Assembly: GCA_018396795.1 (NCBI GenBank)
Contig: JAGTRH010000017.1
Span: 1 to 13,279 of the forward strand
From: Candidatus Bathyarchaeota archaeon
GTDB taxonomy: Archaea > Thermoproteota > Bathyarchaeia > Bathyarchaeales > B26-1
Length of the DNA stretch: 13,279 nucleotides
Reading direction: 5' to 3'
The first letter of the stretch is position 1, and the number at the start of each line of letters is the position of its first letter. The notes beneath the pieces were generated by a model. It searched no databases and was not told the DNA's origin. It saw only the letters and a list, made by a program, of their open reading frames with translations. Shown one piece after another: positions 218 to 13,279 of the stretch. Both the position numbers and the translations under genes were made by a program.

Positions 218-242
218 TTTTCTCTCACATACATGCGCGTGC

Positions 243-767
243 TCAAAGCCCGATGACTACCACTTTTATATCGGTGAAGGATGTTGAGAAAAAGATTATC
301 TTGTATCTCCCCTGAGTAATCTTGACTGGGGTGAAATGAATTTCCTTCAAATTTCCTGATGGAGTTCTTCTTTTATACGATATGCTCGCTCCATTACCAA
401 GATCCTTTGGTTCCACATCAATCACTTCGCCATTACTATATTGATTTAATTGTAAGCGTAAATTTTCGAGAAGAGATTTCTCAGGTCTGTTCTTTGAGAT
501 AAAGGAAATCCACTCCTCAGTGAACTCTATTGTTTCGTCTGCAGAAAGCGACACTATCACTTCAGCAGAGGACTGGGGATTAATGATACAGTGCAGGATT
601 GCTCTGTTTATGTATTCTAAAGAGTATACTCCTAGGCTCTGCATTTTCATCATTTCTATCGTACGCATAGCTATGCTTAACGCTATTATTGCAGCCATAA
701 TGAGCACTGAAAAGAGGACGATTGCAGCTGGGACCGCCATTCCTAGTTTACTCTTATCACTGCCCAT
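243..767 (-). CDS. Type IV pilin-like protein (fourth in the pilus operon)
   Basis: A 174-residue protein beginning MGSDKSKLGMAVPAA, then an uninterrupted hydrophobic helix to about residue 32. Lysines before a glycine (SKLG) followed directly by the hydrophobic stretch fit the archaeal class III signal peptide, with cleavage by a PibD/FlaK-type peptidase predicted after Gly9. The rest is soluble and of mixed composition, with no recognised domain. I prefer the start at 767 over Met10 (740): GGGGTG sits about 7 bases upstream and the longer start keeps the charged leader. It overlaps the upstream gene by 25 bases, so it is probably translationally coupled. It ends in TGA. Inferred role: minor pilin or pseudopilin assembled by the ATPase and platform protein encoded upstream. 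The pilin class is supported by N-terminal architecture and context only. Confidence 0.65.
   Translation of the reverse strand: MGSDKSKLGMAVPAAIVLFSVLIMAAIIALSIAMRTIEMMKMQSLGVYSLEYINRAILHCIINPQSSAEVIVSLSADETIEFTEEWISFISKNRPEKSLLENLRLQLNQYSNGEVIDVEPKDLGNGASISYKRRTPSGNLKEIHFTPVKITQGRYKIIFFSTSFTDIKVVVIGL
264..270 (-). promoter_or_regulatory. Possible TATA box for the solute-binding protein gene
   Basis: On the minus strand the bases read TATAAAA inside the last codons of the preceding pilin-like gene. The centre is about 50 bases upstream of the ATG at 217, leaving room for a leader of about 25 bases containing a GAGAG element. Placement inside coding sequence makes this tentative. Confidence 0.3.
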
Positions 768-1570
768 AGTGTTTCACCCCTGCTTCCACTCACCACTAAA
801 ACTATGCCGATTTCACTATAGGGCTTGTCTTTCTCCAACATTATGTAATATTCGGGCCTGATTAAAACGCTTAATTTATAATATCCATTATCGCTTTCCT
901 TGAAACCATATGCCACTTCCTCCAACTGCTTATCGTTTAAGACATACACCGTGTACCTTACGTATTTAACTGGCCCATCAGTATCTTTCAAAGCAAAATC
1001 AAGATCCAACCGGTATAGGACAGTTCCACTTGCGCGAGTAAGCCCACTACGGCTAATCTCGCTTAATTCTATCCAATAGCTTTTTGCGCTGTTCAGCCCT
1101 CCAAGTACTGGGTCTGTAAGGTCATATTCTAAAGTTATATTGAAATAGGTTAAATTAACTAAGATTCTCCCCTGTATCGATGCTCCATCCATATTGTTGT
1201 ACTTCAATTTTTCCCGGTCCTCGTGAAGCTTGTTAACACTTATGCTGTAAACGCTTTCCATGAAATAGTGTGCGCTCCCAGGTTTCTCATCATCTAAAAA
1301 GTGGTTCTTTTTCAAATTCTCCTCCACAATTTCGCTTGCACTACGCTCAATCTCATAATCCATCATGTATTCTTTAAAATGCTCGAAGGCTTCCTTTGTC
1401 CTAGTGGAAAACTCTGCTCTCAACACGCCCTTTAAAACACTTTCAAGCAGCTCTGTTCGACCTGAAAATGGGGGCTCGTCGATAAACCTTGGAGAATACA
1501 TTAATGCAATAATTATGGCCAGCAGGATTACCAAGGTTGCTAAAATGTATGAGCCGCCCTGCTTATTCAT
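743..1570 (-). CDS. Type IV pilin-like protein, large (275 aa)
   Basis: Starts MNKQGGSYILATLV with a hydrophobic segment to about residue 24 (ending IIIALMYS). A short polar leader ending in Gly-Gly before the hydrophobic helix is consistent with a prepilin peptidase site. The remaining ~250 residues are soluble, rich in beta-type segments, and carry sequons such as NLT and NIT near residues 135-145, as expected of an extracytoplasmic domain. At 275 residues it is longer than typical major pilins, so a minor or tip pilin is more likely. The start is well supported: GGTGGAGAAGG lies immediately upstream of the ATG. It overlaps the previous gene by 4 bases and the next by 25, and ends in TAG. 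No domain family recognised. Confidence 0.65.
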   Translation of the reverse strand: MNKQGGSYILATLVILLAIIIALMYSPRFIDEPPFSGRTELLESVLKGVLRAEFSTRTKEAFEHFKEYMMDYEIERSASEIVEENLKKNHFLDDEKPGSAHYFMESVYSISVNKLHEDREKLKYNNMDGASIQGRILVNLTYFNITLEYDLTDPVLGGLNSAKSYWIELSEISRSGLTRASGTVLYRLDLDFALKDTDGPVKYVRYTVYVLNDKQLEEVAYGFKESDNGYYKLSVLIRPEYYIMLEKDKPYSEIGIVLVVSGSRGETLWAVIRVN

Positions 1571-1995
1571 CCTTCTCCACCCGAGATGCTTAAGACAACT
1601 ATCCTAATCTGCTCTTCACCGTTAAAAGTAAGGTACAGGAAGGCTCCACTAGCAGATTTCTCAGAGTCGAATCCTCTTGAAATGGACCATAGCATCCTCC
1701 ACTGTTCATCATAAACAGTCATGTTATACCCATATGAAGGGGGTAAAACTGATTCTATAATCTTCTTGGAAAGCTCAATGTTTCCACTTCCATCTTCGCC
1801 GTAAATCATCCAGTAAAGGGTGTCTTTCTCATCCAGCAGGGTTAAGATTCTATTAGCAATATTTGACAGCCCCTTATAGGATCTTGTATTAATTATTGAG
1901 ATGTTTAAAACATTTATGAACAGGAAGCCTATTAATAAAACGACTAGTGCCAACGACAATTCTATTAGTCTTGCTTGACCTGTCTTTTTACCCAA
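1567..1995 (-). CDS. Type IV pilin-like protein with TTG start
   Basis: A 142-residue protein. The N-terminus MGKKTGQARLIELSLALVV continues into a hydrophobic helix to about residue 30. The short lysine-rich leader followed by RLIEL and a long hydrophobic run closely resembles type IV pilins (bacterial form: leader-G, then FTLIEL), with the Glu at the place that normally pairs with the mature N-terminus during assembly. The initiation codon is TTG at 1995-1993. An in-frame TAG a few codons upstream leaves no ATG or GTG alternative, and the upstream gene overlaps by 8 bases, so translation is probably coupled. It ends in TGA overlapping the next ATG. A sequon (NMT) lies in the soluble part. 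Role inferred: minor pilin of the same apparatus. Confidence 0.65.
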   Translation of the reverse strand: MGKKTGQARLIELSLALVVLLIGFLFINVLNISIINTRSYKGLSNIANRILTLLDEKDTLYWMIYGEDGSGNIELSKKIIESVLPPSYGYNMTVYDEQWRMLWSISRGFDSEKSASGAFLYLTFNGEEQIRIVVLSISGGEG

Positions 1996-2485
1996 CCCAT
2001 AGATACGCCTCTATTAGCCAAAGGGTGTTTTGAACCTTAGCCATATCGATTATTTTTACAGCATGATTCGGAATTTCCCTTATTCCCATTTCTATAGGAG
2101 GAGGTGGAGGATAAGGCTCGGAAACCCTAGAACTTGTAAAGGATCCTGAAACCTCCGCTATAGCAGTTATTTTCACGTAATAGGCTAAATCTTTCATAGG
2201 ATGATTTTCGGATTTAAGCTTCTCGTAAACTTGTTGAGAAACCTTATAGATAAAGATTCTTCTAAAATCTTCTTCACTCATACTTCTAATCTCCTCTATA
2301 GACTTTGCACGCGTTTCTAACCATAGTTTTATGAAGCTCGATATCGCGTGTCCCCGTTGGCTGAGGGATTCGTAAAGAGCCTCTTGAGTATTCGCCAAGA
2401 AAATATCCTGTACACGGGATGTTGTGAACGCAATGATAATAATGAACAGAACGATTCCCACGAGTGCTTCCATCAGCGCGTTCAT
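1988..2485 (-). CDS. Small membrane-anchored pilin-like protein with polyproline segment
   Basis: 165 residues. MNALMEALVG leads directly into a hydrophobic helix (about residues 7-22, GIVLFIIIIAF) with almost no leader. If it is a pilin, it has lost or never had a recognisable basic prepilin signal, so it may be an uncleaved pilin-like subunit. Residues about 25-100 are strongly helical and amphipathic (QEALYESLSQRG and onward). Residues 126-130 are five consecutive prolines, followed by an aromatic C-terminus ending LWLIEAYLWVG. The ATG overlaps the platform-protein stop in an ATGA arrangement, and the downstream gene overlaps its TAA by 8 bases. Position directly after the TadC-like gene supports a structural or assembly role in the pilus. 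No family recognised. Confidence 0.6.
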   Translation of the reverse strand: MNALMEALVGIVLFIIIIAFTTSRVQDIFLANTQEALYESLSQRGHAISSFIKLWLETRAKSIEEIRSMSEEDFRRIFIYKVSQQVYEKLKSENHPMKDLAYYVKITAIAEVSGSFTSSRVSEPYPPPPPIEMGIREIPNHAVKIIDMAKVQNTLWLIEAYLWVG

Positions 2486-4185
2486 TTAAGACTCACGCCA
2501 AACATAATCATGAACATTGATAGGATCGAAATAACTAAATAAAGCACTACATAAATGAGGCCCACGCCGATCTTGTTATCGCTAATCTTTCCGGTTAATA
2601 AACCTAGGCAAACAGCATTTACCATTAAGCCTGAAAAAACTATGTCTATGAAGGAAGGCAGGTCTTCCTTAGATACTACTTGAAATCTAAACATTATTAC
2701 TGAAGCCCTTTCAGCTTGAGCACGCATGAGTTCTGAACCCCATCCGCTCAAGGGAATAACAATCATTCTGACCAGTATTCCGATTATTAGTATTAGCATC
2801 ATCATCGTCATGAAACTGAACATTTTCAATGGAGAGATGTTTTGCTTCATAATTTTATTTGTATCAGTTATTTCCCTAGTTATGTTAGTTACCTCTTCAA
2901 AAACTTCCCCCTTTCCACCAAATTTAATTGCTTCGGAAAGCAGTGAAAAAATTACCAACCCGGTCCATGAAAGATCGTCTTTCACAGCCCTAATAGCGTC
3001 TTCAAATGATGACCCGGATGTAACCGCTTTTTCTATCTTATTTAAAAGCTCGTCGAACTCACTTCCATATGTTTTTATTTTTACTATGGAACTTATGGCA
3101 AGAAGAGGGGAAACACCTCTCTTCACCTCCTCAGTCATGTCTCTTAGAAAGCTCGGAAGCGCGTTATCTATCCTGTTCAACCTTCTAATTCTCCTGTAAA
3201 AAAGGGTTCCTTCTATAACAGATACTGGAAGAGAGGCTAAAAATAACGATAATGTTATATTATACATACTTAGGTATTCGACTGTTCCCGATAAAAATTG
3301 GACAGCAAAATACGTTGCAACCCCGGCCACTATTGCTGGTGGAATATAGTAGACAATTCTCCTGTAAAGCCTCATGAAGGATACTGGAGTCTTGGGGTAG
3401 AGAGCGTCGATTATCAGGAGAATAGCGACCGTTAGCAACGGGATCACTATATAGGAATAGGCTCTTATTTGAAGGAGGCTCTCTCGGGTTGCAAACATGG
3501 AGTAAAGAGTGAAGAGAATCATAGGGAGTACCCCGAATAAAACAAGTATTACATCAGCCATCGTCTTCATTGTTTCAGAAAGTCTTACATAGGATTCTCT
3601 CAGTATCATGAATGATGATTTCATCTTATCCCTCAGCATTATATAGAGATCCACTCCACTTCTAACTGTTCCTATTATTGAGAAAATAAAGTCTTGAATT
3701 GCCTCTGAACCCATAATCTCCGCTTCTTTTTTAACAGCCGTCCACTCGTCAAGCGCGTATAACTGTCTAAGTTTTTCAATTCTCTTTGACATTCTACCAC
3801 TTGCTGGGAAAATATCTGAGAAAGCTGCTAATTTACCTATGGCAGAGGAAGGCGGTAAACCAGCGACACCATAAAGTGTTAGTAAGGCAGATGTAAAAGG
3901 AAGCTCTTTTTCAACCTGTTTCAGCTCGGTATAGCCTTTAAACACAGGCTCTATAGAGAGTATAAATGTGATGGCCACGGGGAAAGGCGATGCCCAGAGT
4001 AGTAAGTCAAAAATGGGTTCAGATACTGAAATGGGAAAAATACCATGTTTTAACATAAGAGAAATAGCGATCAGTAAAAAAGAAAAAGAAAAAGCAGCCA
4101 GCATATTTATCAGGAATGTTCTTTTAAACTTGCTCGGCGTAATGCCAGCCTGAGCCAAATAAAGATATTTGTCTATATTAAACAT
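2482..4185 (-). CDS. TadC/FlaJ-type pilus platform membrane protein (type II secretion F family)
   Basis: A 567-residue polytopic protein. Hydrophobic segments lie at about residues 24-44, 57-77, 212-232, 243-262, 277-298, 308-330, 455-478, 514-532 and 540-564. Two cytoplasmic helical T2SSF-like domains sit between them: about 95-210 (with LPFTSALLTLYGVAGLPPSS) and about 342-450 (with LPSFLRDMTEEVKRGVSPL). This duplicated arrangement is typical of archaeal FlaJ/TadC platform proteins. Known role: it anchors the pilus in the cytoplasmic membrane and transmits conformational work from the ATPase to subunit insertion. The gene follows the ATPase gene by 6 bases and overlaps the first pilin-like gene by 4, so ATPase, platform and pilins form one transcription unit. 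I cannot separate archaellum, adhesion pilus and Tad-like systems from sequence alone; no archaellum-specific genes are seen. Confidence 0.85.
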   Translation of the reverse strand: MFNIDKYLYLAQAGITPSKFKRTFLINMLAAFSFSFLLIAISLMLKHGIFPISVSEPIFDLLLWASPFPVAITFILSIEPVFKGYTELKQVEKELPFTSALLTLYGVAGLPPSSAIGKLAAFSDIFPASGRMSKRIEKLRQLYALDEWTAVKKEAEIMGSEAIQDFIFSIIGTVRSGVDLYIMLRDKMKSSFMILRESYVRLSETMKTMADVILVLFGVLPMILFTLYSMFATRESLLQIRAYSYIVIPLLTVAILLIIDALYPKTPVSFMRLYRRIVYYIPPAIVAGVATYFAVQFLSGTVEYLSMYNITLSLFLASLPVSVIEGTLFYRRIRRLNRIDNALPSFLRDMTEEVKRGVSPLLAISSIVKIKTYGSEFDELLNKIEKAVTSGSSFEDAIRAVKDDLSWTGLVIFSLLSEAIKFGGKGEVFEEVTNITREITDTNKIMKQNISPLKMFSFMTMMMLILIIGILVRMIVIPLSGWGSELMRAQAERASVIMFRFQVVSKEDLPSFIDIVFSGLMVNAVCLGLLTGKISDNKIGVGLIYVVLYLVISILSMFMIMFGVSLK

Positions 4186-4191
4186 TAAGCA

Positions 4192-5913
4192 TCACTTACG
4201 TGACCAAAACCTTTTTTTATGTTTTTTCGTTTTTTTAATCCCAGGACCTGTTTTTGAACCTTCTTTAACATGTTTTATTTTCGCTGGTTGTTTCCTAATT
4301 GGACTAACCCTTATGGGTTTCGGCTTAGTAACATCTATGCCTGCGGAATCCGTACTCTGAACATTATCCTTAGTTTCCACCTCTTCAAATACTTGTCTTG
4401 GCAACAGCTGTTGATCCTTATAATATTCAGGATTACTATAATATTTTTTAAGTTCGCCTAAGAACCCATCAGGTTCTAAAACATTCGGATCACTATCTGC
4501 AAGATTCCTTAACCATTTCAGGTATTCTGTTCTTTTTTCCAACTCTTCTTTGAAATCTATACCGGCTTTATCCCAAAGGTATTTCACTGTTTTTGAACTC
4601 ATTAGCTTTTCAAAATCTATACTGTAAGAATCAGTACGAACATCATATGATACAAAAACCTCAAATTTTGTTTCACCATTATGGAGAATTACATGTCCTA
4701 TTTCAGTTATTCTCCTTTTCCCCATTTCACTTACTTTCTTTATAAAAATTATTCCTCCACGCAAAGCTATTAATTCCTCTTTCTTTAGGCCTATGTGCTG
4801 CATTCTCGTACATAGATCTTCGAAATTAGGTGCATGAAAAGTTGTAATTCCTCCACTGCCTGCAGCTATAGCGTTTATCCACGTAGGTACGTCTTCTTCA
4901 CTCCTGACCTCGTTAACAACTATATAGTCAACGACTGCTCTTAATATTTGTTTCAAAAGTTCTTGCGTCGTTATCGGTTTTCCATCCGATGTTAGAGATT
5001 CTCTCGTAAAGTATCTTAACCAACTTTCTGGTCTCACGGGAAGCTTGAATTCAGGTACATCTTCTATCGTACCTATTCTGACAGTGGGCCTGGTAAACCC
5101 GCATATAGAGTTTGCGAGTGAGGTTTTCCCAGAGTCCATTTCTCCACATACAAGCATAGGCATTTTATTCTCCATGAATATCCAGAGTATGGCAGCAATC
5201 TCAGGGGTGAGCGTATTGTTCTTCATAAGCTTGGTGGGTGTCCACCCGGTTTTAGGGAATTTTTTTATCGTGAAGGTCGAGGACCCTGCTATCTCCCCCA
5301 TGTAGCTTGCAGCAAGTCTGCTCCCATCCGGCAATCTAGCATTATCTATTCTGGGGTTCGCTTTGGATATGGTTTTTGCAGCCTTATAAGCCAATCTTTG
5401 AACTAACTGATCTAGTTCATCCGCATTATATTTCAAGTTAGTCGTTAAACGACCTATGCCATAATATTTAACAGTCAGGGAAACATCAGCACCGGTACAT
5501 TCAATACTTTCTATATTTGGATCATGCATCAATGGGTCTAAGCTTGAATACCTGTCTTCGCTGATTTCCCTCATAATCAGATATTTAAGACCAGGTGAAA
5601 TTTTCAATTCTCCTAACCGCTTTTTAATATCCTCATCCTTCTTAAATTCTGAATAAATTAGCTCGCCTGCTGTTTTTTCAAGTAGTTCCAATTGATCTTC
5701 TGTCACCGGGGGGTCCTGAACAAGATAATAACCCAACCCTTCTTTTACGCCGATCATGATCTTTGTCTGAGTGTTTTCAACGTAATACTCTTTTTCCTTT
5801 CTAAATCCAGTTAGATCCGCTGAGAAAACCTTTATTTTTATTTTGGGAAATGTTTCAGGCTTTTTACCTTTTTTATCTGGAGTCATTTTCACATTACGCT
5901 TGAGTATCGCCAT
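4192..5913 (-). CDS. Type II/IV secretion system ATPase (TadA/CpaF/FlaI-like)
   Basis: 573 residues. The hexameric motor that powers pilus or secretion assembly. The N-terminal domain (about 1-230) carries the linker motif NPRIDNARLPDGSRLAAS, typical of the VirB11/TadA family. The C-terminal ATPase domain has Walker A GEMDSGKT (257-264), an Asp box TIEDVPE (282-288), a Walker B-like YIVVNEVR (330-337; Glu335) and a His box GSGGITTFHA (352-361). Most relatives have G-E-V-R where this protein has N-E-V-R. After about residue 530 there is a low-complexity, strongly basic tail rich in Lys and Pro, ending KKHKKRFWSRK, not usual for the family. Start: GGAG lies 5 bases upstream of the ATG, and a TATA box precedes it by about 35 bases. 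First gene of the pilus operon. Confidence 0.9.
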   Translation of the reverse strand: MAILKRNVKMTPDKKGKKPETFPKIKIKVFSADLTGFRKEKEYYVENTQTKIMIGVKEGLGYYLVQDPPVTEDQLELLEKTAGELIYSEFKKDEDIKKRLGELKISPGLKYLIMREISEDRYSSLDPLMHDPNIESIECTGADVSLTVKYYGIGRLTTNLKYNADELDQLVQRLAYKAAKTISKANPRIDNARLPDGSRLAASYMGEIAGSSTFTIKKFPKTGWTPTKLMKNNTLTPEIAAILWIFMENKMPMLVCGEMDSGKTSLANSICGFTRPTVRIGTIEDVPEFKLPVRPESWLRYFTRESLTSDGKPITTQELLKQILRAVVDYIVVNEVRSEEDVPTWINAIAAGSGGITTFHAPNFEDLCTRMQHIGLKKEELIALRGGIIFIKKVSEMGKRRITEIGHVILHNGETKFEVFVSYDVRTDSYSIDFEKLMSSKTVKYLWDKAGIDFKEELEKRTEYLKWLRNLADSDPNVLEPDGFLGELKKYYSNPEYYKDQQLLPRQVFEEVETKDNVQSTDSAGIDVTKPKPIRVSPIRKQPAKIKHVKEGSKTGPGIKKTKKHKKRFWSRK

Positions 5914-5944
5914 TCATACTCCATTTTATGGTAAGTGAAATCCA

Positions 5945-5957
5945 CATATAAATTTTT
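5945..5957 (-). promoter_or_regulatory. Archaeal promoter (BRE + TATA) of the pilus operon
   Basis: On the minus strand the region reads AAAAATTTATATG, an A-rich BRE-like stretch then a TATA box centred about 36 bases from the ATG at 5913. Transcription would start near 5924, leaving a leader of about 10 bases with GGAG. It lies in the only clear gap (5914-6012) between the ubiquitin-type locus and the pilus genes, so the two groups are probably transcribed separately. Confidence 0.6.
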
Positions 5958-5965
5958 CTAGAGAA

Positions 5966-5986
5966 ACCCTGTATTTGATAGAGGGT
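5966..5986 (-). terminator. Weak stem-loop downstream of the zinc-ribbon gene
   Basis: ACCCT (5966-5970) and AGGGT (5982-5986) form a 5-bp inverted repeat with an 11-base loop, lying between the stop of the zinc-ribbon gene (6013) and the TATA box of the pilus operon. On the minus strand it is followed by a short mixed T/A run. It could help end the upstream transcript, but the stem is short and archaeal termination often needs only a T-tract. Confidence 0.25.
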
Positions 5987-6012
5987 CTTACACCAAAATA
6001 TGGGCATTGCAC

Positions 6013-7446
6013 TTATAAAAGTGAATTCCCGCACTCTATACAGAAAGATGCATCACTATCATTTTTAAACCCGCATGAACTACAGCTTAATGATTCTCTA
6101 TCTTCCCTTACTAACATATCATACTCTTGAAGAGATAAAGGCAGGTCTGAAGCTATGTTTTGAATCAGTTTAATAACTTCTTTCTCACTTTCTAAAATAT
6201 CTTCGACAGACTCCTTAAAAGACTCGTCGACACGGAGTCCCACTCTGCTTGCCAAATCCTTAAATATGTTTATTTTTTTAGACAGGGTTAAGTTAAATTT
6301 TTGATTTAAAACATTAACCGCAAAATACTGGGATGTTTCAGCAAAAATGGTTTCTGATTCTTGAAAGGCCTTTCTGAGCTCTTCTAAACGTGATTCAGCT
6401 TCTCTATATTTAACTTCCTTTTCTCGAATTTCTTCTGTAAGAGCATTTCCTTCAATAAGTTTTCTAGCATTTAACAATTCTAACTCAACTTTGAGTTCGG
6501 ATAATGTGCTTTCTACGCGTGCTATTTCCTCAGAGAAACTAAATCCACATTCTGGGCAAAACTTACTTCCTATTGGTAAAATACTTTTGCAATTATAGCA
6601 GACAGCATGCTTCTTTTCTTTAGAATCCTTTGGCAAGAAAACTTGGTTTATCTTCGATCCACAGAATTTGCAATACTTCCACGATATTTGAACAGTTTTT
6701 CCACATGAATCACATTTTCTATCCTCCTTTTCTTCGTACAATACATCGGGATAAAGAATACTTCCTAATATAAATAGATTCATGGATTTTCTAACCATGT
6801 TTTTCCTAGATTCCTCGTATTTTTCTCTAAGATTTTTTGATACTGCTACCTTTGCCTCAGTCCTGAGCTTTTTAAGGTTATCCAGAGATTCTAAGGCCAT
6901 TTCTCCCAAGAATCTAAGTTTCGTCAGAAAGCCGTTAACATAGATCAACTGGTCGAGAAATTCATCAGAAAAATCGCTAATGATTTTCTGCTTCTCATCT
7001 TTTTTAGTCTCAACGAAAGGCCTGGCTACAAGTTCGCTGACAACTTGCAATATATATTCAATATTGTTTAACGCCTCTCTTAAATTAACCAGATTTGAAT
7101 TTAGGCATGTTTTATCAATAGATAACTCTTTAAGACTAGGCCTTAGCAATAGTTCTTCAAGCCTTTTTTTATACGTTTGTTCATCAATTTCTCCCGCAAA
7201 ATACATAAGATCGTATTCGGCGGCTTCGAAAACCAAGTTTTTAAGAATAAAATCTGGAGTCGACGGATTCATCAATTTTATAGCCCTTAGTCTTTCTAGT
7301 GTCCTTAATGCATCCAGTATATCCTTTGTATTCATTTGGAGCTGTTTTTCAGCATCTTCCAAAGAGAAGGTTACACTCCCGTTTTTTGAACATGATATTA
7401 TGTATTTTAAAACTTTTATGGCAGTTTCATCTAAATCTGTTGACAT
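6013..7446 (-). CDS. Winged-helix-like, coiled-coil protein with three zinc ribbons
   Basis: 477 residues, no named family recognised. Order: a winged-helix-like N-terminus (about 1-70; LDETAIKVLKYI, then DALRTLERLRAIKL), a helical segment with the hairpin motif FAGEIDEQTYKKRLEEL (83-99), a long helical region (110-225), zinc ribbon 1 (Cys245, 248, 259, 262), zinc ribbon 2 (Cys283, 286, 297, 300), a coiled coil (about 305-370), another helical region, and a C-terminal zinc ribbon (Cys455, 458, 469, 472). All twelve cysteines are in intact CxxC pairs. The gene begins 18 bases after the E1-like gene on the same strand, so it is probably co-transcribed with it. Zinc ribbons can bind ubiquitin (for example the NZF type), so this could be an adaptor or receptor of the modifier, but it could equally be DNA- or RNA-associated. 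Function unknown. It ends in TAA. Confidence 0.75.
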   Translation of the reverse strand: MSTDLDETAIKVLKYIISCSKNGSVTFSLEDAEKQLQMNTKDILDALRTLERLRAIKLMNPSTPDFILKNLVFEAAEYDLMYFAGEIDEQTYKKRLEELLLRPSLKELSIDKTCLNSNLVNLREALNNIEYILQVVSELVARPFVETKKDEKQKIISDFSDEFLDQLIYVNGFLTKLRFLGEMALESLDNLKKLRTEAKVAVSKNLREKYEESRKNMVRKSMNLFILGSILYPDVLYEEKEDRKCDSCGKTVQISWKYCKFCGSKINQVFLPKDSKEKKHAVCYNCKSILPIGSKFCPECGFSFSEEIARVESTLSELKVELELLNARKLIEGNALTEEIREKEVKYREAESRLEELRKAFQESETIFAETSQYFAVNVLNQKFNLTLSKKINIFKDLASRVGLRVDESFKESVEDILESEKEVIKLIQNIASDLPLSLQEYDMLVREDRESLSCSSCGFKNDSDASFCIECGNSLL

Positions 7447-7464
7447 TTTTTTCTAAAACCCCTG

Positions 7465-8277
7465 CTAATAGAAATCGTTGCATATGCAACCCTTCCTCCT
7501 TTCAACATCGACTACAGTTATATAGTTTGCCCTTCCCATGTAGTACAGCACCTTACCCGCGAGACTCTTTAGTTTATTGCCTTCTCTATCAATTAGCAAT
7601 TTAAATATTTCCTGAGACTGAAAACCCCCGATTATAGACGTGATGGATGAAATAGAAGAAAGCGGTAGAAGAGTCCCGTCGTCCAATATTTTTCCGCTGC
7701 AGGAGGTTCTTTCCCTAACTGCCTACTTACTCATCTCACACTATAACCAAGCAGTTTTCCCAGGAATAGTTACTCTAACATACCCCTCGAAACCCTCCAT
7801 TCCACCATCTACTAAAGGTTTTCCATTAATTAACGATAATATGTTTAATTTAAGTCTAGAGGCAACACCATCTAGACAGGAAACATACAGGTCGGCATCC
7901 TTCAAGAAGTCTTCATCCCCATTCAGATCCAGCAGATTTCTATTGATAGGAATTATCTCTGTGTTTATGTTTTTTCTTAACTTTTTAACGTTTTTTGCAA
8001 GAGCCTCAACCTTTTGTGTTTTCAACTCAGCATCTTCTAGAGTGAAAAGAATACACCTATTTAGGTTAGCCTTTATCACATGATCGAAATCCATTATGTA
8101 TATCTTTCCTATTCCTGCTAAAACCAAATTTTTAACAACTTCGTTTCCCAAGGCTCCCGCTCCTGCTATAAACACGCTTCCCTCTTCTATGCTTTTCTGG
8201 CTCCATCCATCTATAAGTATCTGTCTGCTGAACGTATCTTCGTCAATTTCATACCTGCCAATACTCCTTATACTCAT
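7465..8277 (-). CDS. E1-like ubiquitin-activating enzyme (ThiF/MoeB fold), interrupted by two in-frame TAG codons
   Basis: If the TAGs are ignored this is a 270-residue protein in one frame. Residues 1-178 are a good E1 adenylation domain: SRQIL (17-21), the nucleotide loop GAGALG (39-44), DFDHV with Asp63/Asp65, NLNRCILF (71-78), Lys86, and CLDGVASR (134-141) with Asp136. Known role: adenylate the C-terminal Gly of the modifier and carry it as a thioester. TAG codons stand at positions 179 (7741-7743) and 185 (7723-7725). The frame resumes with RERTSCSG, where Cys193 is the candidate catalytic cysteine, then SIIGGFQSQEIFKLL (typical of the family) and a terminal CIC (264-266), a likely second half of a zinc site. 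There is no credible start for the C-terminal piece alone. It lies 7 bases after the coiled-coil gene. Amber readthrough, decay or sequence error are all possible. Fold call very firm; intactness uncertain. Confidence 0.85.
7723..7743 (-). other. Two in-frame amber codons in the E1-like gene
   Basis: Minus-strand codons read W-L-TAG-C-E-M-S-K-TAG-A-V-R. Relatives usually have A-C-Y-x-C here, the first half of a structural zinc site. The nine bases before the TGT are TGGTTATAG; moving a single G gives TGTTATGAG, that is Cys-Tyr-Glu, which would restore CYEC. TAG also ends at least five genes in this window (stops at 743, 7465, 8285, 9887 and 11247), so it normally acts as a stop here. Confidence 0.85.
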
Positions 8278-8284
8278 GGTTGAA

Positions 8285-9271
8285 CTATACTAATAGCCTA
8301 TCTAAAGAATGGATTTTCCCCCTTAATGCTTCTGTTTTTTCACGATAATCTTCATAAATCCTTTTCTGAACCACCAGTTGATCATTAAGATTTTTTTCTT
8401 TTCTCTTTAGTTCGACTATTAACCTATTATACTCATCTGCACTAATTTCATTAGTCTTATATTTTTCTTCGACTTGCGAAATTTGCCATAATGTTTCATT
8501 CAAATCGTTTTCAATCAGTTTGATTTGAGAGATAAACCCAATCTGCATGTTAAAGTTTTTCAGGCTTTTTATTTCGGCAATCGTATTTTTCAATATCTCT
8601 TCAATTCTTCCTTTAAGGAAAATATAACTTGCTTCATCTAATAGTCCTACAGAATGTTTCACTTTAATGTTATTAAGCTCCTCTTCAAATCCTTCAGCTT
8701 TCTTCTCAAGCTCATCAATGCGATGGTTAACAGCATCTTTTAAGTTTGCCAATTTAGAGATCCGCGAGTTTAAGAAATCTTCAATATGAGGCGGATACTC
8801 TAGTTTATTCACCTGTGCATTATAGATGTAATCAACGATGCTGATGATTTCTTTCTTCCAGTCGTTAATTTCGTTTTCGGAAATCGGGATCTCATGGAGC
8901 AAGGCATATATTTTAAGGTTTAGCCTACCGATTTTCTCGCGTGTATCCTCTAAAACCGAAAGGATGACTTTTTTGTTCTTCTCATCTTTCTCTTCTATTA
9001 ATCTAAGTATAGCTAACTCTTCAATCCTATGTAGGTTCTTTCTTTCAGAAAGTAGCGCATTTAAATCATGTGCTTCCAAGAGGCTTTTGAAAAACTGAGA
9101 TAATTCACGAATAGTCTTTACTTTAACATCAACTTTTCTTAAGTCAGAAACCTTCATAGCACGCGGAGGAACAGGAATAATTGAAGCGATCCTCTTTATG
9201 GATAGCATTAAGCTAAGATATTCGCTAAAGGTAATATAAACTTTTCTCTTAAGGATTTCGCGGATAAACAT
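8285..9271 (-). CDS. Coiled-coil protein of unknown function, upstream of the E1-like gene
   Basis: About 328 residues from the ATG at 9271. The frame is open to an ATG at 9337 (350 residues), but that start would overlap the divergent RING gene and its TATA box, so the inner start is preferred; no clear Shine-Dalgarno decides it. The protein is almost entirely helical and charged. After a basic, mildly hydrophobic N-terminus (REILKRKVYITFSEYLSLML) come long heptad-like stretches with no membrane segment, cysteine or catalytic signature. Two segments share a hairpin pattern: VGLLDEASYIFLKGRIEEIL and YKTNEISADEYNRLIVEL. A third copy occurs in the zinc-ribbon protein. It ends in TAG 7 bases before the E1-like start, which implies co-transcription. 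A scaffold or substrate adaptor is a guess from context. It could also be a remote ESCRT/CdvB-like helical protein, but I see no decisive motif. Confidence 0.7.
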   Translation of the reverse strand: MFIREILKRKVYITFSEYLSLMLSIKRIASIIPVPPRAMKVSDLRKVDVKVKTIRELSQFFKSLLEAHDLNALLSERKNLHRIEELAILRLIEEKDEKNKKVILSVLEDTREKIGRLNLKIYALLHEIPISENEINDWKKEIISIVDYIYNAQVNKLEYPPHIEDFLNSRISKLANLKDAVNHRIDELEKKAEGFEEELNNIKVKHSVGLLDEASYIFLKGRIEEILKNTIAEIKSLKNFNMQIGFISQIKLIENDLNETLWQISQVEEKYKTNEISADEYNRLIVELKRKEKNLNDQLVVQKRIYEDYREKTEALRGKIHSLDRLLV

Positions 9272-9310
9272 GGTTTGTAGCAATATGCTGAAAACCTTAT
9301 ATTCTTCCCG

Positions 9311-9320
9311 TTTAAATAAG
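9311..9320. promoter_or_regulatory. Shared bidirectional TATA element between the RING and coiled-coil genes
   Basis: TTTAAATAAG contains the palindrome TTTAAA. It is centred about 39 bases upstream of the plus-strand start at 9354 and about 44 bases upstream of the minus-strand start at 9271. Both distances are compatible with archaeal initiation, so one A/T-rich core may serve both directions. Confidence 0.45.
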
Positions 9321-9353
9321 ACAGATGAACAATACATGTTGGAGAAGTTTCGA

Positions 9354-9881
9354 ATGAACGAACAAAAACTGGTTGAAAAAGATGAGAAAACAGGTATGAT
9401 TAGGGATGTAGTATTTATTAAGACGAGCAGGCTTCACGTTGTCGGTCTGATTGTTAACATTCACGGTGAAGAGTTAGAAATTCCGATTCATAAGGTTAAA
9501 ATAAGTGGAGATAACATGGTGATTCCGTTGATAAATAAAAAGGCTATTAAAACTTTCATCAAATCCTCTGGACATACGGTTTTAGAGCCAATATCCATCA
9601 GGATAAAAGTTCTTCCTAAGGCTAGGAAACTTTTAGAAGGCGGAAAAACAGATCGAATAGAAGCTGTTTCAACCATCATGCTGGATATTAATGACGCGTT
9701 GTTATCTAAATGCCCAATATGCATGGGGAAGGTTGAATCCATGGAGGAGTTTGTATTCTGTCAATCTTGCCTAACGCCCTACCATAAAAGTTGTATAGAC
9801 GAGTTGCTCAAATCTGTTCCTAGAGAAAAATGTTGGAACTGCGGCAATATCGATTTATCACAAATTTCAAAGCTTACTTAA
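9354..9881 (+). CDS. RING/PHD-like C4HC3 zinc-finger protein, candidate E3 ligase
   Basis: 175 residues from the ATG at 9354, chosen because GGAG (9341-9344) lies 9 bases upstream; an in-frame ATG at 9270 would overlap the divergent gene. Residues 1-115 form a beta-rich N-terminal domain (VVGLIVNIHGEELEIPIHKV) that I do not recognise and that may bind partners. The C-terminus is a cross-brace zinc finger: Cys120, Cys123, Cys136, Cys139, His144, Cys147, Cys160, Cys163, spacing C-x2-C-x12-C-x2-C-x4-H-x2-C-x12-C-x2-C. The C4HC3 order resembles RING-CH or PHD more than a classical C3HC4 RING. Known: RING proteins bring E2~ubiquitin to substrates, and a small RING protein is encoded with the Caldiarchaeum ubiquitin genes. 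The gene is convergent with the surface-protein gene, with stops 5 bases apart. E3 activity is inferred from context. Confidence 0.8.
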   Translation: MNEQKLVEKDEKTGMIRDVVFIKTSRLHVVGLIVNIHGEELEIPIHKVKISGDNMVIPLINKKAIKTFIKSSGHTVLEPISIRIKVLPKARKLLEGGKTDRIEAVSTIMLDINDALLSKCPICMGKVESMEEFVFCQSCLTPYHKSCIDELLKSVPREKCWNCGNIDLSQISKLT

Positions 9882-9886
9882 AAATG

Positions 9887-11257
9887 CTATTCTCTTTTAG
9901 ATCTATACCATTTTATGAGGAGGATGTTTATAAATATTAAGGAAAATATTTGAAGAGCAATTAGTAGCGGCATGTTAAACAATACACTTGGCTCATATTT
10001 TATGATCAAATCTTTCGGTAGCCATACTATCCTCAATCCAGCTTCGCTATTATTCAAATATCCAAGGAAGCAATTATCCGAGTACATTGAAAAAATTCCA
10101 AATGGTAAAAGCATGTTATCAGAATATTGCAAGAATATTGGTTGATTGTTTATAACACTGATCAACCATCCAGCTTGTATTCCTCTTATCCTTCTTAAAT
10201 AGCATTTTATTGTTATATTGGCGTCTTGGTTTGCTACAATGCTTGTTTTATCCGTGGCAATGTTTAAACCATATGGACCCCTTTTAAGCTTGACAGTTAA
10301 CACGTAGTTGCCATCTGTAAGTTGCACTACTGGATTTTCTATTTTTGTTCCATTTAAGTAAAGTTCCAATTCATGAAGACTTATCTCATTTCCATCAGAA
10401 TCAATAAGGTTCAAGGAAGAGAGATATAGCTTATCCAGGTTTAACACGATTTCCCTTTCTGTTTCATTAAATGGCCTTCTTCCAACTTCTTTATTATCAT
10501 ATAGTGCCCGCCAGTAACAATTCTCGATATTTGATGGCAAGACCCTTGAAAAACTTATTTCTAATGTCCCATTTTCATCAACCTTCTCCATTAAGAGAGA
10601 ATTAGCATTGTGAGTCAACTCTATCACCACATTGCTTACAGCCTTGTTTAGTCTTATACGTATGCCTTTAACATCAGTCACATTCAATCTTAAAGGAAGG
10701 CCTTCATCAATATTAAGTATCCCTGTTGACACCGTAAAATTATTTCCAAAAAATGGATAAATTATGCTATAATTGAATTTAAAATCACTAGGTATGGTAA
10801 AATTAAGAGTTCCTTTATACATCTCCCAAGTTTTACTTAGATTTCCACGCGAGATTTTTAAGTATAATCTGATGTTTGAAATATTTATGTTTGAAGCATA
10901 ACATCTAAGTATGGCGTTTTTTATGTTTAAATTCAACACTAGTGGCTCAGAAAGATTCACATCCAGTATCCTTCCAATTTTTAACAACGTCAAGTTTAGA
11001 GGAATCCAGATAAGACTCGCTTCTAGGCCGGTGTAGTTGTAAGGAATCCTAGTTTCCCCGTTTACTACTTCGTAGAATTCAGAGAACGTATCATTATAAA
11101 CTTTTAAAGCAATAAAACCGTTAAGCGGAATCATATCGTCTAACGTTTTAAAGTTAAACACGATGTCTTGATTAGGTGTGCCGACCGTTTTAATAGTTAA
11201 TAATGCTGTTTGAAGCAATAGCAATAATAAGATTCCCGTTGCTCTCCTATAGTCCAT
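9887..11257 (-). CDS. Secreted, C-terminally anchored, sequon-rich surface protein
   Basis: 456 residues from the ATG at 11257, preceded by GAAGGGAAGAG. An upstream ATG (11284) would overlap the previous gene by 38 bases and blur the signal peptide, so it is less likely. N-terminus: MDYRRATGILLLLLLQTALL, a strong signal sequence. C-terminus: a hydrophobic segment at about 428-449 followed by KWYRSKRE, a stop-transfer anchor with a short basic cytoplasmic tail. Between them lie about 15 N-x-S/T sequons (NDT, NYT, NLT, NLS, NIS, NFT, NYS, NVT, NGT, NET, NIT, NNS), so a heavily N-glycosylated extracellular beta-rich region is expected. Parts near 305-370 look like PEGA or Ig-like modules (LYLNGTKIENPVVQLTDGNY). 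No catalytic motif seen. It is last in the modifier operon, after the single-pass membrane gene (11-base overlap). Function unknown. It ends in TAG. Confidence 0.75.
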   Translation of the reverse strand: MDYRRATGILLLLLLQTALLTIKTVGTPNQDIVFNFKTLDDMIPLNGFIALKVYNDTFSEFYEVVNGETRIPYNYTGLEASLIWIPLNLTLLKIGRILDVNLSEPLVLNLNIKNAILRCYASNINISNIRLYLKISRGNLSKTWEMYKGTLNFTIPSDFKFNYSIIYPFFGNNFTVSTGILNIDEGLPLRLNVTDVKGIRIRLNKAVSNVVIELTHNANSLLMEKVDENGTLEISFSRVLPSNIENCYWRALYDNKEVGRRPFNETEREIVLNLDKLYLSSLNLIDSDGNEISLHELELYLNGTKIENPVVQLTDGNYVLTVKLKRGPYGLNIATDKTSIVANQDANITIKCYLRRIRGIQAGWLISVINNQPIFLQYSDNMLLPFGIFSMYSDNCFLGYLNNSEAGLRIVWLPKDLIIKYEPSVLFNMPLLIALQIFSLIFINILLIKWYRSKRE

Positions 11258-11792
11258 AATATCTCTTCCCTTCAACCAGTACAATACCTAAAAGTTCAGC
11301 TCTGACATTCACAACCAAGAGTACATCATTACTATCAATTACAAAATTTAGTCCATCAGCATATCTTAAGCTCGCAGTATTATTACTGGGGATTGATCTG
11401 ATAGATGTCTTTGTAAGGACGTTCAAAATTGTAGTGGTGAACCAATTATTTCCTTCCACCTCTATCTTTATTGTATCGCTATCAATGCGAATCACATTTA
11501 CTCCGTTCAAAATTGTTTGAACACAAAAGATGGTGAAAGTGTAAAGTAAAGACATTCCTATTATAGAATTTACCAGCAAAAGGTAAATAATAAGTCTATT
11601 GGTGCTTTTTCGCCGAATGGGTCTATGCTTTCTGAAGAAACGGACAAGGGGCTCGTAGGAAAAAGGCTCCTCGCCAGCCGAGTGTATTGCCACATACCTA
11701 TATCTTGGCGGAGTCGGTGGCGGGGCTTTCTTCACTTCTCTCTCAACAACTCTTTTCACTTTCAGCTTGGAAACCTCTTTTTCACCGCTCAT
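11247..11792 (-). CDS. Single-pass membrane protein with basic, proline-rich cytoplasmic tail
   Basis: 181 residues, family not recognised. Residues 1-65 are polar and basic (KLKVKRVVEREVKK, then PPPTPPRYRY and RFFRKHRPIRRK). One membrane helix spans about 67-92 (LIIYLLLVNSIIGM onward), and the positive-inside rule predicts N-in/C-out. The outer part (93-181) is beta-type and has a sequon (NNT, Asn137). Start is secure: AGGAGAGGAGG lies immediately upstream of the ATG, which overlaps the JAMM gene by 11 bases. Its stop TAG overlaps the start of the surface-protein gene. The tight overlap on both sides implies it is made together with the protease and the surface protein. The lysine-rich inner tail could be a docking site or substrate for the modifier machinery, which is speculation. 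Confidence 0.7.
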   Translation of the reverse strand: MSGEKEVSKLKVKRVVEREVKKAPPPTPPRYRYVAIHSAGEEPFSYEPLVRFFRKHRPIRRKSTNRLIIYLLLVNSIIGMSLLYTFTIFCVQTILNGVNVIRIDSDTIKIEVEGNNWFTTTILNVLTKTSIRSIPSNNTASLRYADGLNFVIDSNDVLLVVNVRAELLGIVLVEGKRYYGL

Positions 11793-12261
11793 TTTTCCTC
11801 CTCTCCTTGAAAATGATAAACGGTATCCCTCTGTATGAATTATCGGTGAGCTTAAATAGCTTTAACTCTATTCTCACTGGATCAATTACTAATGCTACAT
11901 GATTAGGGTTTGAAAAGAAGCTTCTTTGAGTTTGCACGTCTATTGATGACAAAAAGCAGCCGAAATCAGGGTGCGAATGGTACCAGCCAACAATAATATT
12001 TTCTTTCAATATCCTGTCAATTCTATTTAAAGCCCTCGCTAACGAATTCTCGTGAGGCTCAACCATATCTGATCTTGAAATACTCTCAATAGGCTGACTA
12101 TCCACAATTAACGTGTATTGCTTTCCATTCCATTCGCAAAAGTCTCCAATTAGGAACCCAAGAACCTCAACATCCTTGTTTAAAGCCACGTGATTCTCAA
12201 GTTTAGCTAACGCATCAAACGAAATGTAAGCCTCATATATATTATCGCTAGAATTAAGCAT
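11782..12261 (-). CDS. JAMM/MPN+ metalloprotease, Rpn11-like deubiquitinase
   Basis: 159 residues, essentially one MPN+ domain without the C-terminal extension of eukaryotic Rpn11. All zinc and catalytic residues are visible: Glu32 in EVLGFLIG, and HSHPDFGCFLSSIDVQTQ at 95-112, giving His95, His97, Ser105 and Asp108 (H-x-H-P-x6-S-x2-D). GWYHSHP-x-FGC-x-LS-x-x-D-x-x-TQ is strikingly like Rpn11 and CSN5, closer than to bacterial RadC or MEC types. Known reaction: zinc-dependent hydrolysis of the isopeptide or peptide bond after the Gly-Gly of ubiquitin-like proteins. Here the likely jobs are trimming the 5-residue tail from the modifier encoded two genes upstream, and removing it from targets. 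The gene overlaps the E2 gene by 8 bases and the membrane-protein gene by 11; GAGGA precedes the ATG. It ends in TGA. Confidence 0.93.
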   Translation of the reverse strand: MLNSSDNIYEAYISFDALAKLENHVALNKDVEVLGFLIGDFCEWNGKQYTLIVDSQPIESISRSDMVEPHENSLARALNRIDRILKENIIVGWYHSHPDFGCFLSSIDVQTQRSFFSNPNHVALVIDPVRIELKLFKLTDNSYRGIPFIIFKERRKNER

Positions 12262-12826
12262 TCTTCCTCAACAATTTCGGGGGAGGACGCTTTTTGAAAT
12301 ATTCTGCAGCATCCTTGCAAATTTTTGGAACTGAAATTGGATCATCAGGATACGGGTTGGAGATCAGTATTCTTAAACCATCTATTATTCCGATAAGAGA
12401 CATTTTTGTCATCGAGGCTTTCAACAGATTCCAACATACTACGCCGTTTCCCCCAAACTTCTCCCCGGGAGCTATGTTTGGATGAAATATGGGAGATAAC
12501 CAAGCCAGCCTCACAGGAGCGCCTAACCTTCTGCTATCATCATAATACGGGTACCATCTTAATACGTAAATCCTCACAACACCCGTGGTTAAAGGCAATG
12601 GGTCAACGCCTTCCCTAGGTCTATAGTAGCATGATGCTTCAAACTCCACATCATAGACCCTGACAACTTCAACCTCTTCCCACCCGTATACGGTATAAAC
12701 ATGTATCTTTTTGCCTTTTTCTCCAGAATAATAATCCGTCTTAAAAACTCTTCTAACGTGATTGGAAGCTTTAAGCTCGTTCTCCTCGTTGTCAAGCCTT
12801 CTTAACAGTAAGTTCATCGGCAACAT
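12254..12826 (-). CDS. E2-like ubiquitin-conjugating enzyme (UBC fold)
   Basis: 190 residues against about 150 for a minimal E2. An N-terminal helix region (1-30) precedes a UBC core: a beta meander (about 40-110), the HPN motif in SPIFHPNIAPG (His115-Asn117), candidate active-site Cys131 in GGNGVVCWNLL, and the crossover region with LRILISNPYPDDPISVP (151-167) followed by an AAEYF helix, as in eukaryotic E2s (NP-x-x-x-DP, then A-x-x-Y). Known role: accept the modifier from E1 as a thioester and deliver it to lysines with an E3. Odd: the spacing from His of HPN to Cys is 16 residues, where the common eukaryotic spacing is 10, so a glycine-rich insertion of about six residues sits next to the active site. 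A basic tail follows. It starts 11 bases after the modifier gene; Met4 (12817) is an alternative start. It ends in TAA. Confidence 0.92.
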   Translation of the reverse strand: MLPMNLLLRRLDNEENELKASNHVRRVFKTDYYSGEKGKKIHVYTVYGWEEVEVVRVYDVEFEASCYYRPREGVDPLPLTTGVVRIYVLRWYPYYDDSRRLGAPVRLAWLSPIFHPNIAPGEKFGGNGVVCWNLLKASMTKMSLIGIIDGLRILISNPYPDDPISVPKICKDAAEYFKKRPPPKLLRKNA

Positions 12827-12837
12827 TTCAAGGTCCT

Positions 12838-13098
12838 TCAGATGTTTCCGACGTACCCACCTATCACCCTAGGCATCAAATGTAACACATCGCCGTTTCT
12901 CACACCGATTTCTCCCAGCGTTCTCGTATCGCTGGAGGTAATCTCCTTACTCCCCAGGGTCAATATCCACTCGCCACTCCTAAGCTTAAGCTGGCTTATT
13001 ACAAGATCGATTATGTCCTTCGGTGTATGATAGGGCTCAACCTCAACCTCAATCTGCTTGCCTTCAGTAGGGACAATAATTGTTATAGACTCAGGCAT
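12838..13098 (-). CDS. Ubiquitin-like modifier precursor with internal Gly-Gly
   Basis: 86 residues with a beta-grasp pattern: strands SITIIVPTEG and KQIEVEVEPY, a helix TPKDIIDLVISQLKL, then EWILTLGSKEI, TLGEIGVRNGDVLHLMPR. The order and spacing match ubiquitin (T-L-x-E-x-G-V-x-x-G-D-x-L-x-L). The chain ends RVIGGYVGNI: Gly80-Gly81 followed by five residues, so it must be cut after Gly81 before activation. Lysines at 14, 27, 38 and 51 could be chain sites. Known: the Caldiarchaeum modifier is also made as a precursor and matured by an Rpn11-like enzyme. First gene of the operon, 11 bases before E2. There is no Shine-Dalgarno, and the TATA box is about 28 bases upstream of the ATG, so the mRNA is probably leaderless. 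URM1, SAMP or ThiS types usually end directly in GG, which argues against a sulphur carrier. Confidence 0.93.
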   Translation of the reverse strand: MPESITIIVPTEGKQIEVEVEPYHTPKDIIDLVISQLKLRSGEWILTLGSKEITSSDTRTLGEIGVRNGDVLHLMPRVIGGYVGNI

Positions 13099-13120
13099 TT
13101 CTAAATAAGAATGAAGAAGT

Positions 13121-13135
13121 CATATATAAGGCTTT
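13121..13135 (-). promoter_or_regulatory. Promoter of the modifier operon (leaderless)
   Basis: Minus strand: AAAGC, then CTTATATATG, a strong TATA box centred near 13126, about 28 bases from the ATG at 13098. Initiation would fall at or within a few bases of the start codon, consistent with the absence of a Shine-Dalgarno there. Confidence 0.65.
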
Positions 13136-13171
13136 TTCTTCAATATATCTTATCTTCATGAGCAACATCGG

Positions 13172-13197
13172 AGCTTTTTAATCGCGTGCTAAAAGCT
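13172..13197. repeat. 7-bp inverted repeat in the right-hand intergenic region
   Basis: AGCTTTT (13172-13178) and AAAAGCT (13191-13197) flank a 12-base spacer containing GCGTG. It could be a hairpin ending a transcript that enters from beyond the window, or a regulator site about 45-70 bases upstream of the modifier TATA box. The surrounding stretch 13131-13279 has no ORF I can defend. Confidence 0.3.
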
Positions 13198-13279
13198 TAG
13201 AAGGGCAGGAAACTTCTTTCAACTTCTCGTCTAGCACAAGTTCATGTAGAAAAAATCACGAATATGCTAACGCTAAATT

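Follow-up and report, generated by a model that had tools for sequence, protein, structure and literature searches.

The cellular role of archaeal ubiquitin systems is an open question, and it is raised by a gene set in a stretch of 13,279 nt from Candidatus Bathyarchaeota archaeon (contig JAGTRH010000017.1, positions 1 to 13,279; hereafter the window). This stretch encodes a ubiquitin-like modifier (Ubl), E1, E2 and RING-type proteins and a deubiquitinase of the JAMM type, together with genes of a type IV pilus-like set. The coupling between ubiquitin (Ub) and pilus genes is well supported, while the substrates and the chemistry are inferred. We see about an even chance that the window represents a membrane-tethered cassette for ubiquitin-like conjugation, dedicated to an envelope machine that resembles a type IV pilus. 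No archaeal ubiquitin-pilus gene link was found in the accessible text of the open-licence literature; the supplementary clusters I-III of PMC5654768 may show related loci.

Open reading frames (ORFs) were called in six frames over the window, which yielded the nine genes of a preliminary description, all present where it had placed them, and six further genes. That description had divided the locus into two minus-strand units around a plus-strand RING gene. The orientation of the RING gene stands, but the lower unit does not end at position 6013 and runs on to position 243. At a distance of 99 nt from the gene of a zinc-ribbon protein (6013..7446, minus strand) lies the gene of a type II/IV secretion ATPase of a Ub-linked subfamily (4192..5913; PF00437, T2SSE, 3.6e-16), followed after 6 nt by that of a TadC/FlaJ-like membrane protein (2482..4185; PF00482, T2SSF, 2.3e-7). 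The archaeal pilus-like order, a T2SSE ATPase and then a T2SSF membrane protein, is thus present. Four small pilin-like ORFs of the same strand complete the run (1988..2485, 1567..1995, 743..1570 and 243..767); from the TadC-like gene onwards, neighbours overlap by 4, 8, 4 and 25 nt. Each encodes one N-terminal transmembrane segment (TM) and none has a pilin match in Pfam; cleavage sites were judged by eye. The ORF at 1567..1995 has homologues inside the related loci L003, L004, L005 and L111 (3.9e-8 to 1.4e-6), and no convincing homologue of the other three was found inside these loci. Since the minus strand continues past position 6013, the E1 gene (7465..8277) stands in one gene run with the type IV pilus-like set.

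Relatives of the window-type E2 are few. The search for homologues at E <= 0.001 among 5.8 billion proteins returned eight; the E2 relative P0003 and the E1 relative P0017 are both labelled Thermoproteota archaeon. A scan of a genome collection with the E2 alignment found 123 relatives; the analysis retained the best 80 (L001-L080). The nearest loci, L001-L006, share 37-42% identity and come from three Desulfurococcales and three Calditenuaceae; L003-L005 together with L111 are referred to below as the Calditenuaceae group. A wider E2 alignment run against 398 genomes of the phylum gave strong matches in five and weak ones only in 46 more, and a second draw of genomes from the phylum led to the same five E2-positive genomes. 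At E <= 1e-15, 1/40, 3/229 and 4/44 genomes of three classes were positive in overlapping sets. In total, the window-type E2 is present in eight genomes (G001-G006, G104 with L111, and G139 with L112), and no closer relatives of the window were found in the genome collections searched. A viral origin was considered and set aside: viral contigs contained no E2 relative, plasmid records lying outside the search. The controls comprise 18 loci, one each for 18 of the phylum's 49 weak E2 matches; these have a long E1 where it was measured (nine rows) and are termed Caldiarchaeum-like by build only, Caldiarchaeum genes themselves not being part of that comparison.

Profiles of the window ATPase and TadC were run over the 80 E2 loci and matched L001-L005 (5/80) and none of L006-L080, many of which are short. 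They also matched L111, and none of the 18 long-E1 control loci. Pilus genes adjoin Ub genes in seven of the eight genomes with the window-type E2, which are those of Desulfurococcales, Calditenuaceae and a relative; the exception is G139. In G001 the linkage consists of TadC and pilin-like genes only, the ATPase of this genome being encoded on a different contig. Both G001 and G002 have six pilin-like ORFs followed on the same strand by E1, with gaps of 87 and 69 nt, respectively. G006, whose E2 contig is short, encodes a winged-helix protein, E1 and the ATPase in a row on a second contig, the latter two at least 49 nt apart. In G104, a plus-strand run starts with a Ubl-E2 gene and JAMM, continues with ATPase and TadC genes and then with membrane and pilin-like ones, and ends with a one-TM gene and E1; one minus-strand gene follows JAMM and another precedes the one-TM gene. 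Counting as pilin-like every ORF of 100-320 aa with one N-terminal TM, which is a crude rule, gives 30 of 138 ORFs for the eight loci and 4 of 14 for the window, compared with 6 of 323 for the 18 controls. The pilus gene run of G104 also encodes, not far from E1, a surface protein with N- and C-terminal TMs and, by eye, an HExxH-like stretch (L177:14260-15747).

The ATPase belongs to a separate subfamily. When the window ATPase was used as the query, the best copy adjoined Ub genes in G002, G003, G004, G005 and G104, lay next to E1 in G006 and was on a contig lacking Ub genes in G001. A tree of the window protein and 23 of 24 matches (L157, the weakest, was excluded) contains a clade of eight rows with support 95/97, namely the window, the four of the Calditenuaceae group, G002, G006 and G001, and the 16 other ATPases from the same eight genomes fall outside this clade. 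For searches of whole classes, a profile was built from six sequences (window, G001, G002, G003, G005 and G104). In a class of 44 genomes, a close ATPase (963-978 bits) occurred only in the four with a window-type Ub system, the next match scoring 360. Among the 229 genomes of another class, with at most five candidates scored in each, the three highest-scoring ATPases (G001 with 885, G002 with 875 and G006 with 570 bits) came from exactly the three Ub-bearing genomes, followed by G402 with 495. G004 and G006 are absent from the profile, and G004 is close to rows that were included. For TadC, the window query finds the Ub-linked copy as the best match of four genomes, whereas G001 and G002 each have it in second place. 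The locus of G402 (L179:8112-11880) encodes the related ATPase, TadC and a one-TM pilin-like protein without Ub genes, and is possibly a Ub-free outgroup of the pilus machine.

In G003, G004 and G104, a second E2 is encoded with a long E1. The window-type set is therefore not the only Ub system of these genomes, and a dedicated role is likelier there than a general one.

The conjugation enzymes themselves are of known kinds. The preliminary description had claimed a complete pathway with signature residues in each component; this holds for Ubl, E2, JAMM and RING, whose genes are intact, but not for E1, the gene of which is interrupted, so that the pathway is not complete in this copy as sequenced. 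The Ubl (12838..13098, minus strand) is a pro-form with five C-terminal residues after GG. Its best Pfam match is YukD (3.6e-6), ahead of ubiquitin (6e-6), and its matches in the PDB include both. The E2 gene (12254..12826, minus strand; 190 aa) follows after 11 nt; its match to UQ_con (6.9e-4) lies under the curated cut-off, and the PDB matches are of the UbcH5 type, the best at 3.5e-4. The residues H115, P116 and N117 of an HPNI motif and C131 are invariant among the relatives, and C131 would be the catalytic cysteine, judging from its position. The JAMM gene (11782..12261, minus strand; Pfam JAB 3.8e-13) overlaps that of E2 by 8 nt. The protein is RPN11-like, carries the HxHP..S..D signature with intact metal-site residues and matches yeast RPN11 (1.8e-18; 70 bits) better than Caldiarchaeum Rpn11 (49 bits). 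The RING-type protein (9270..9881, plus strand; start uncertain) is barely above the cut-off of Prok-RING_1 (5.5e-7), and its comparison with the RINGs of L111, L003-L005 and L002 gave 1.2e-9 to 3.1e-5. In each locus of the Calditenuaceae group, a single ORF matches both Ubl and E2, which are joined there by an in-frame fusion (L003:9752-10573, L004:9752-10573, L005:9743-10573 and L111:9232-10050). The GG of this fusion is located at the joint, and thus JAMM cleavage may release both proteins.

The E1 gene, of ThiF/MoeB size, lies 7 nt from the gene of a coiled-coil protein (CC) and 18 nt from the zinc-ribbon gene, all on the minus strand, and its product matches ThiF/E1 of Pfam over the first 178 aa (3.9e-35). 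Two in-frame TAG codons (7741-7743 and 7723-7725) and a Cys-to-Trp change (7747-7749) fall within 27 nt. The lost cysteine is kept in all 13 other rows of the alignment, and three more cysteine columns are invariant in all 14. A frameshift was ruled out by the alignment, in which the whole frame is preserved and aligns with the nearest relative at 82%. Recoding of TAG as a sense codon was also ruled out: TAG terminates 5 of the 15 window genes and therefore acts as a normal stop here. Full-length frames occur in eight close relatives (60-82% identity), which were taken from a protein collection that favours open frames. The evidence fits both a fresh loss and base errors. In the window strain, E1 may have been lost recently, another E1 may be borrowed, or the contig may contain base errors. 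With about 270 residues in the window and 280-312 aa in six loci of the same type, this E1 is shorter than that of the nine long-E1 rows in the phylum (389-424 aa). In the E1 tree, the window clade groups with Desulfurococcales (87/87).

A link to the membrane is suggested by TM1, the membrane protein gene after JAMM (11247..11792, minus strand), which overlaps the JAMM gene by 11 nt and whose product is proposed to be a membrane tether of JAMM. It contains a proline motif followed by a TM at residues 67-85. The net charge is +7 before this TM and 0 after it, which suggests that the N-terminus is inside. That TM1 is a single-pass protein, as had been proposed earlier, is likely but uncertain owing to a second, weaker hydrophobic stretch at residues 157-175. 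Only 5 of the 9802 ORFs scanned combine the proline motif with a TM within the following 10-60 aa. These are TM1 itself, one ORF each in L002 (true start uncertain) and L112, both overlapping JAMM, an ORF of L006 in which motif and TM are fused to JAMM as its C-terminus, and a low-complexity protein in a control locus. L001 stops inside JAMM. In a profile comparison, TM1 and the L112 protein match at 0.0026 over 23 motif columns only. A structure model of the L006 protein (pLDDT 79.7) contains a C-terminal TM helix and a JAMM fold, to which RPN11 and CSN5 come nearest; the proline-motif linker is disordered in the model, which thus says nothing on docking. The Calditenuaceae gene beside JAMM was considered as a tether and rejected, having a PPPT motif but no TM; its profile was compared with CC only. 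In Thermoplasmatota, proline stretches occur in the N-termini of JAMM proteins (L010:10308-12962 and L012:5751-6278), of which only L010 fits the loose pattern; they are possibly a docking peptide of archaeal JAMMs.

The preliminary description had proposed to test whether the four accessory families occur beside Ubl, E2 and JAMM in relatives. This could be checked for TM1 only, for which the protein collection contains three homologues apart from TM1 itself; in two cases TM1 and E1 relatives appear to share a contig, as deduced from equal longest contigs (12948 and 7139 bp). Membrane proteins as functional partners are borne out for TM1 and the JAMM-linked proteins of L002 and L112 or the fused one of L006, but not for the surface protein SURF (9887..11284, minus strand). 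The overlap of 38 nt between the genes of TM1 and SURF depends on the uncertain TTG start of the latter. SURF has a TM or signal sequence at residues 17-35 and a C-terminal TM at residues 439-457, followed by a short basic tail. It is indeed sequon-rich, with 15 N-X-S/T sequons as against 5.1 +/- 2.0 in shuffled sequences, none of 2000 of which reached 15. Its best matches (0.024 and 0.096) were to Ubl ORFs and were rejected, and the comparison with the L177 surface protein gave 1.1; no relative of SURF was accepted in the loci searched, and a conserved surface-protein family is not supported. A single-sequence structure model of SURF (pLDDT 34.6) was unusable. Other loci encode large proteins with N- and C-terminal TMs but different domains, which recur only as a class, and the varied surface proteins near Ub loci include cohesin, VWA/dockerin and Ig-like types. 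In G139, a VWA and dockerin protein and a cohesin protein are encoded together near the Ub genes (L112:391-4559).

The coiled-coil protein CC (8285..9337, minus strand) has no convincing counterpart in the loci searched either, and a conserved partner of this kind is not supported; one candidate from a profile comparison (E 0.0036 over 53 coil columns) was not accepted. With their starts as listed, the CC and RING genes share 68 nt head to head, and at least one of the two true starts thus lies further in. A link to CdvA was considered because of weak Pfam matches only (CdvA coiled coil 0.0045 in CC, PRC barrel 0.0064 in RING) and was dropped, as nine neighbour proteins of other Ub loci contained no such match.

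The zinc-ribbon protein fared better as a partner, in part. Its ribbons (Pfam 1.1e-12) were not found by Pfam in the counterparts at the other loci scanned, but the family of its N-terminal winged-helix domain recurs in seven of the eight genomes and is not visible in G001. Leave-one-out profiles of the first 135 residues recovered the omitted member in each case: the window at 2e-8, G006 at 6e-12, L002 at 4e-11, L112 at 7e-7 and the best of the Calditenuaceae at 1.5e-7. The omitted members were the best matches outside the training set, apart from a near twin in L004 and from L116, which scored higher in the L112 and Calditenuaceae tests. Of 4424 ORFs in 92 other loci, two matched below 1e-3: L116 has one of them, for a CdvB-like protein, and L127 the other, next to Ub genes. 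In the former locus (L116:12055-13988, G182), the CdvB-like gene (weak Snf7 match of 0.0019, C-terminal winged helix) stands beside E1 and an E2 of the long-E1 type, and a further gene resembles MIT/Vps4 by eye; this is possibly an ESCRT-ubiquitin neighbourhood outside Asgard. In the latter (L127:8498-10644, G346), the winged-helix gene adjoins E1 and E2 genes that both apparently start with a ubiquitin-like domain, as judged by eye.

The preliminary description had placed modification at or near the cell envelope, and this link is now stronger, because the pilus genes are part of the locus. As a mechanism, JAMM would trim the tail of the Ubl and, held by TM1, would strip the modifier from its targets at the inner face of the membrane. 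E1, E2 and RING would attach it to cytosolic lysines, for which the ATPase, TadC and the tails of pilins or surface proteins are candidates, and the winged-helix/zinc-ribbon protein is probably an adaptor. Transfer from E1 via E2 and RING, as well as trimming and deconjugation by JAMM, would be expected from the families concerned, by analogy with the Caldiarchaeum proteins as described in the accessible parts of PMC5654768 and PMC6043591. Such a reversible tag could set the assembly, activity or turnover of the pilus machine. That the modifier is used by or on the type IV pilus-like apparatus, and that conjugation and membrane-tethered removal form a control switch, is held only tentatively, at less than an even chance. 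The gene content suggests that ubiquitin-like tagging may act at the cell envelope in some archaea. If this is true, ubiquitin would be used at the membrane in archaea outside Asgard, separately from the co-occurring long-E1 system. A cassette that travels with one ATPase subfamily and has a membrane-tied deubiquitinase points to specific candidate substrates and to a site where it would act, and the presence of two separate ubiquitin systems in three of the eight genomes, one of them apparently dedicated to the envelope, bears on the origin of membrane-linked ubiquitin use.

Several observations weigh against a dedicated cassette of this kind. The E1 copy of the window is broken, and the E1 tree does not join the Calditenuaceae with the window group; the Ub-pilus link is thus either old or was assembled more than once. 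The window ATPase is a long branch, for which the tree program warns of false joining, and of the seven genomes that the profile ranks first in the class searches, five had contributed to its training. The clade ATPase of G001 is on a contig without Ub genes, the TadC closest to that of the window is not the Ub-linked copy in G001 and G002, and no Ub gene was detected within 20 kb of the related ATPase and TadC of G402. The cassette of G139 stands without pilus ATPase and TadC on a 12.5-kb contig, this genome has no ATPase of the clade, and its RING in L112 matches that of the window at 0.09, worse than the best control RING (0.0022). The tether motif was written after four proteins had been seen, and no TM protein follows JAMM in the Calditenuaceae group.

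Some of these points would be expected of an ordinary cytosolic archaeal ubiquitin operon with accidental pilus and membrane neighbours, which we regard as unlikely. The core enzymes are of a known kind, and neither L007-L080 (74 loci, many short) nor G139 contains pilus genes by the profiles used. Such an operon does not account for a link that recurs in three lineages with a dedicated ATPase clade and is absent from all 18 control loci, nor for the coexistence of both Ub types in three genomes; for a genome of 1.2 Mb, chance alone would place an E2 within 10 kb of one particular gene in some 2% of cases per lineage, by a rough estimate. A slightly smaller probability is given to quality control of the envelope, in which misfolded membrane or secreted proteins are marked for extraction and degradation and the pilus is one client among many. 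It would fit an RPN11-like JAMM linked to a membrane protein and the variety of nearby surface proteins (cohesin, VWA/dockerin, Ig-like), but the link is to a single ATPase subfamily, and the 15 genes described for the window include neither a protease nor a Cdc48-like gene, no search having been aimed at them.

Viruses often use pili as receptors, and the system might instead be antiviral, of the Bil, Bub or CBASS kind, and tag virus particles or the pilus as their receptor. This is doubtful, a shade more so than quality control. PADLOC models of E1 and JAB match the E1 and JAMM of the window, and the distribution is patchy. The E1 matches are limited to the ThiF-type region, though, and need not mean defence; PADLOC gave no match at 0.01 for E2, Ubl, RING or CC, and the lack of one for E2 and Ubl does not agree with membership of these defence systems; the zinc-ribbon protein has only a weak AbiEi-like match (0.0048), and both the RING and the RPN11-like type of JAMM speak for the ubiquitin line of archaea. 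Least probable by far is a system decaying in the window strain, in which the E1 pseudogene would be the first of several losses. The two in-frame stops and the lost conserved cysteine are what such decay would leave, but each of the remaining 14 genes has an open frame and the packing is tight, the eight close E1 relatives are full-length in a collection favouring open frames, and base-call errors could likewise explain three changes in 27 nt.

The proposed membrane-tethered cassette dedicated to the pilus-like machine shares features with several known systems. Its JAMM resembles eukaryotic RPN11 and CSN5 in sequence, fold and metal-site residues; whereas the eukaryotic proteins are part of a lid complex, JAMM here adjoins a membrane protein or is fused to such a segment in L006. 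In type VII secretion (YukD/EccD), the genes of the secretion machine likewise include one for a ubiquitin-fold protein, but YukD is not known to have E1, E2 or JAMM partners, whereas the window has a conjugation set. With archaeal type IV pili and the archaellum, which consist of a secretion ATPase, FlaJ/TadC and class III pilins, the window shares the order of a PF00437 ATPase, a PF00482 protein and pilin-like genes. It differs from them in an ATPase subfamily that stands apart from the other ATPases of the same genomes and shares a gene run with E1; the accessible text of a 2016 census of archaeal type IV pili (PMC4858521) contains no word starting with 'ubiquitin'. The closest counterpart of the conjugation set is the operon of Candidatus Caldiarchaeum subterraneum (Ub, E1, E2, the RING protein srfp and Rpn11), in which the same five functions are clustered, with an RPN11-like JAMM and a small RING. 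As far as the accessible parts of two reports go, its modifier is likewise a precursor with a tail after GG (PMC5654768), and its enzymes work in vitro on E2 itself and on test substrates (PMC5654768, PMC6043591). The genes of Caldiarchaeum were compared only for Rpn11 and Ubl, via the PDB. The E1 of the window type has 269-312 aa, in contrast to 389-424 aa in the nine long-E1 loci, which are Caldiarchaeum-like by build. Compared with such long-E1 loci, none of the 18 controls among which has a pilus ATPase or TadC, the window type adds pilus genes, a putative JAMM tether and a winged-helix protein to the conjugation set.

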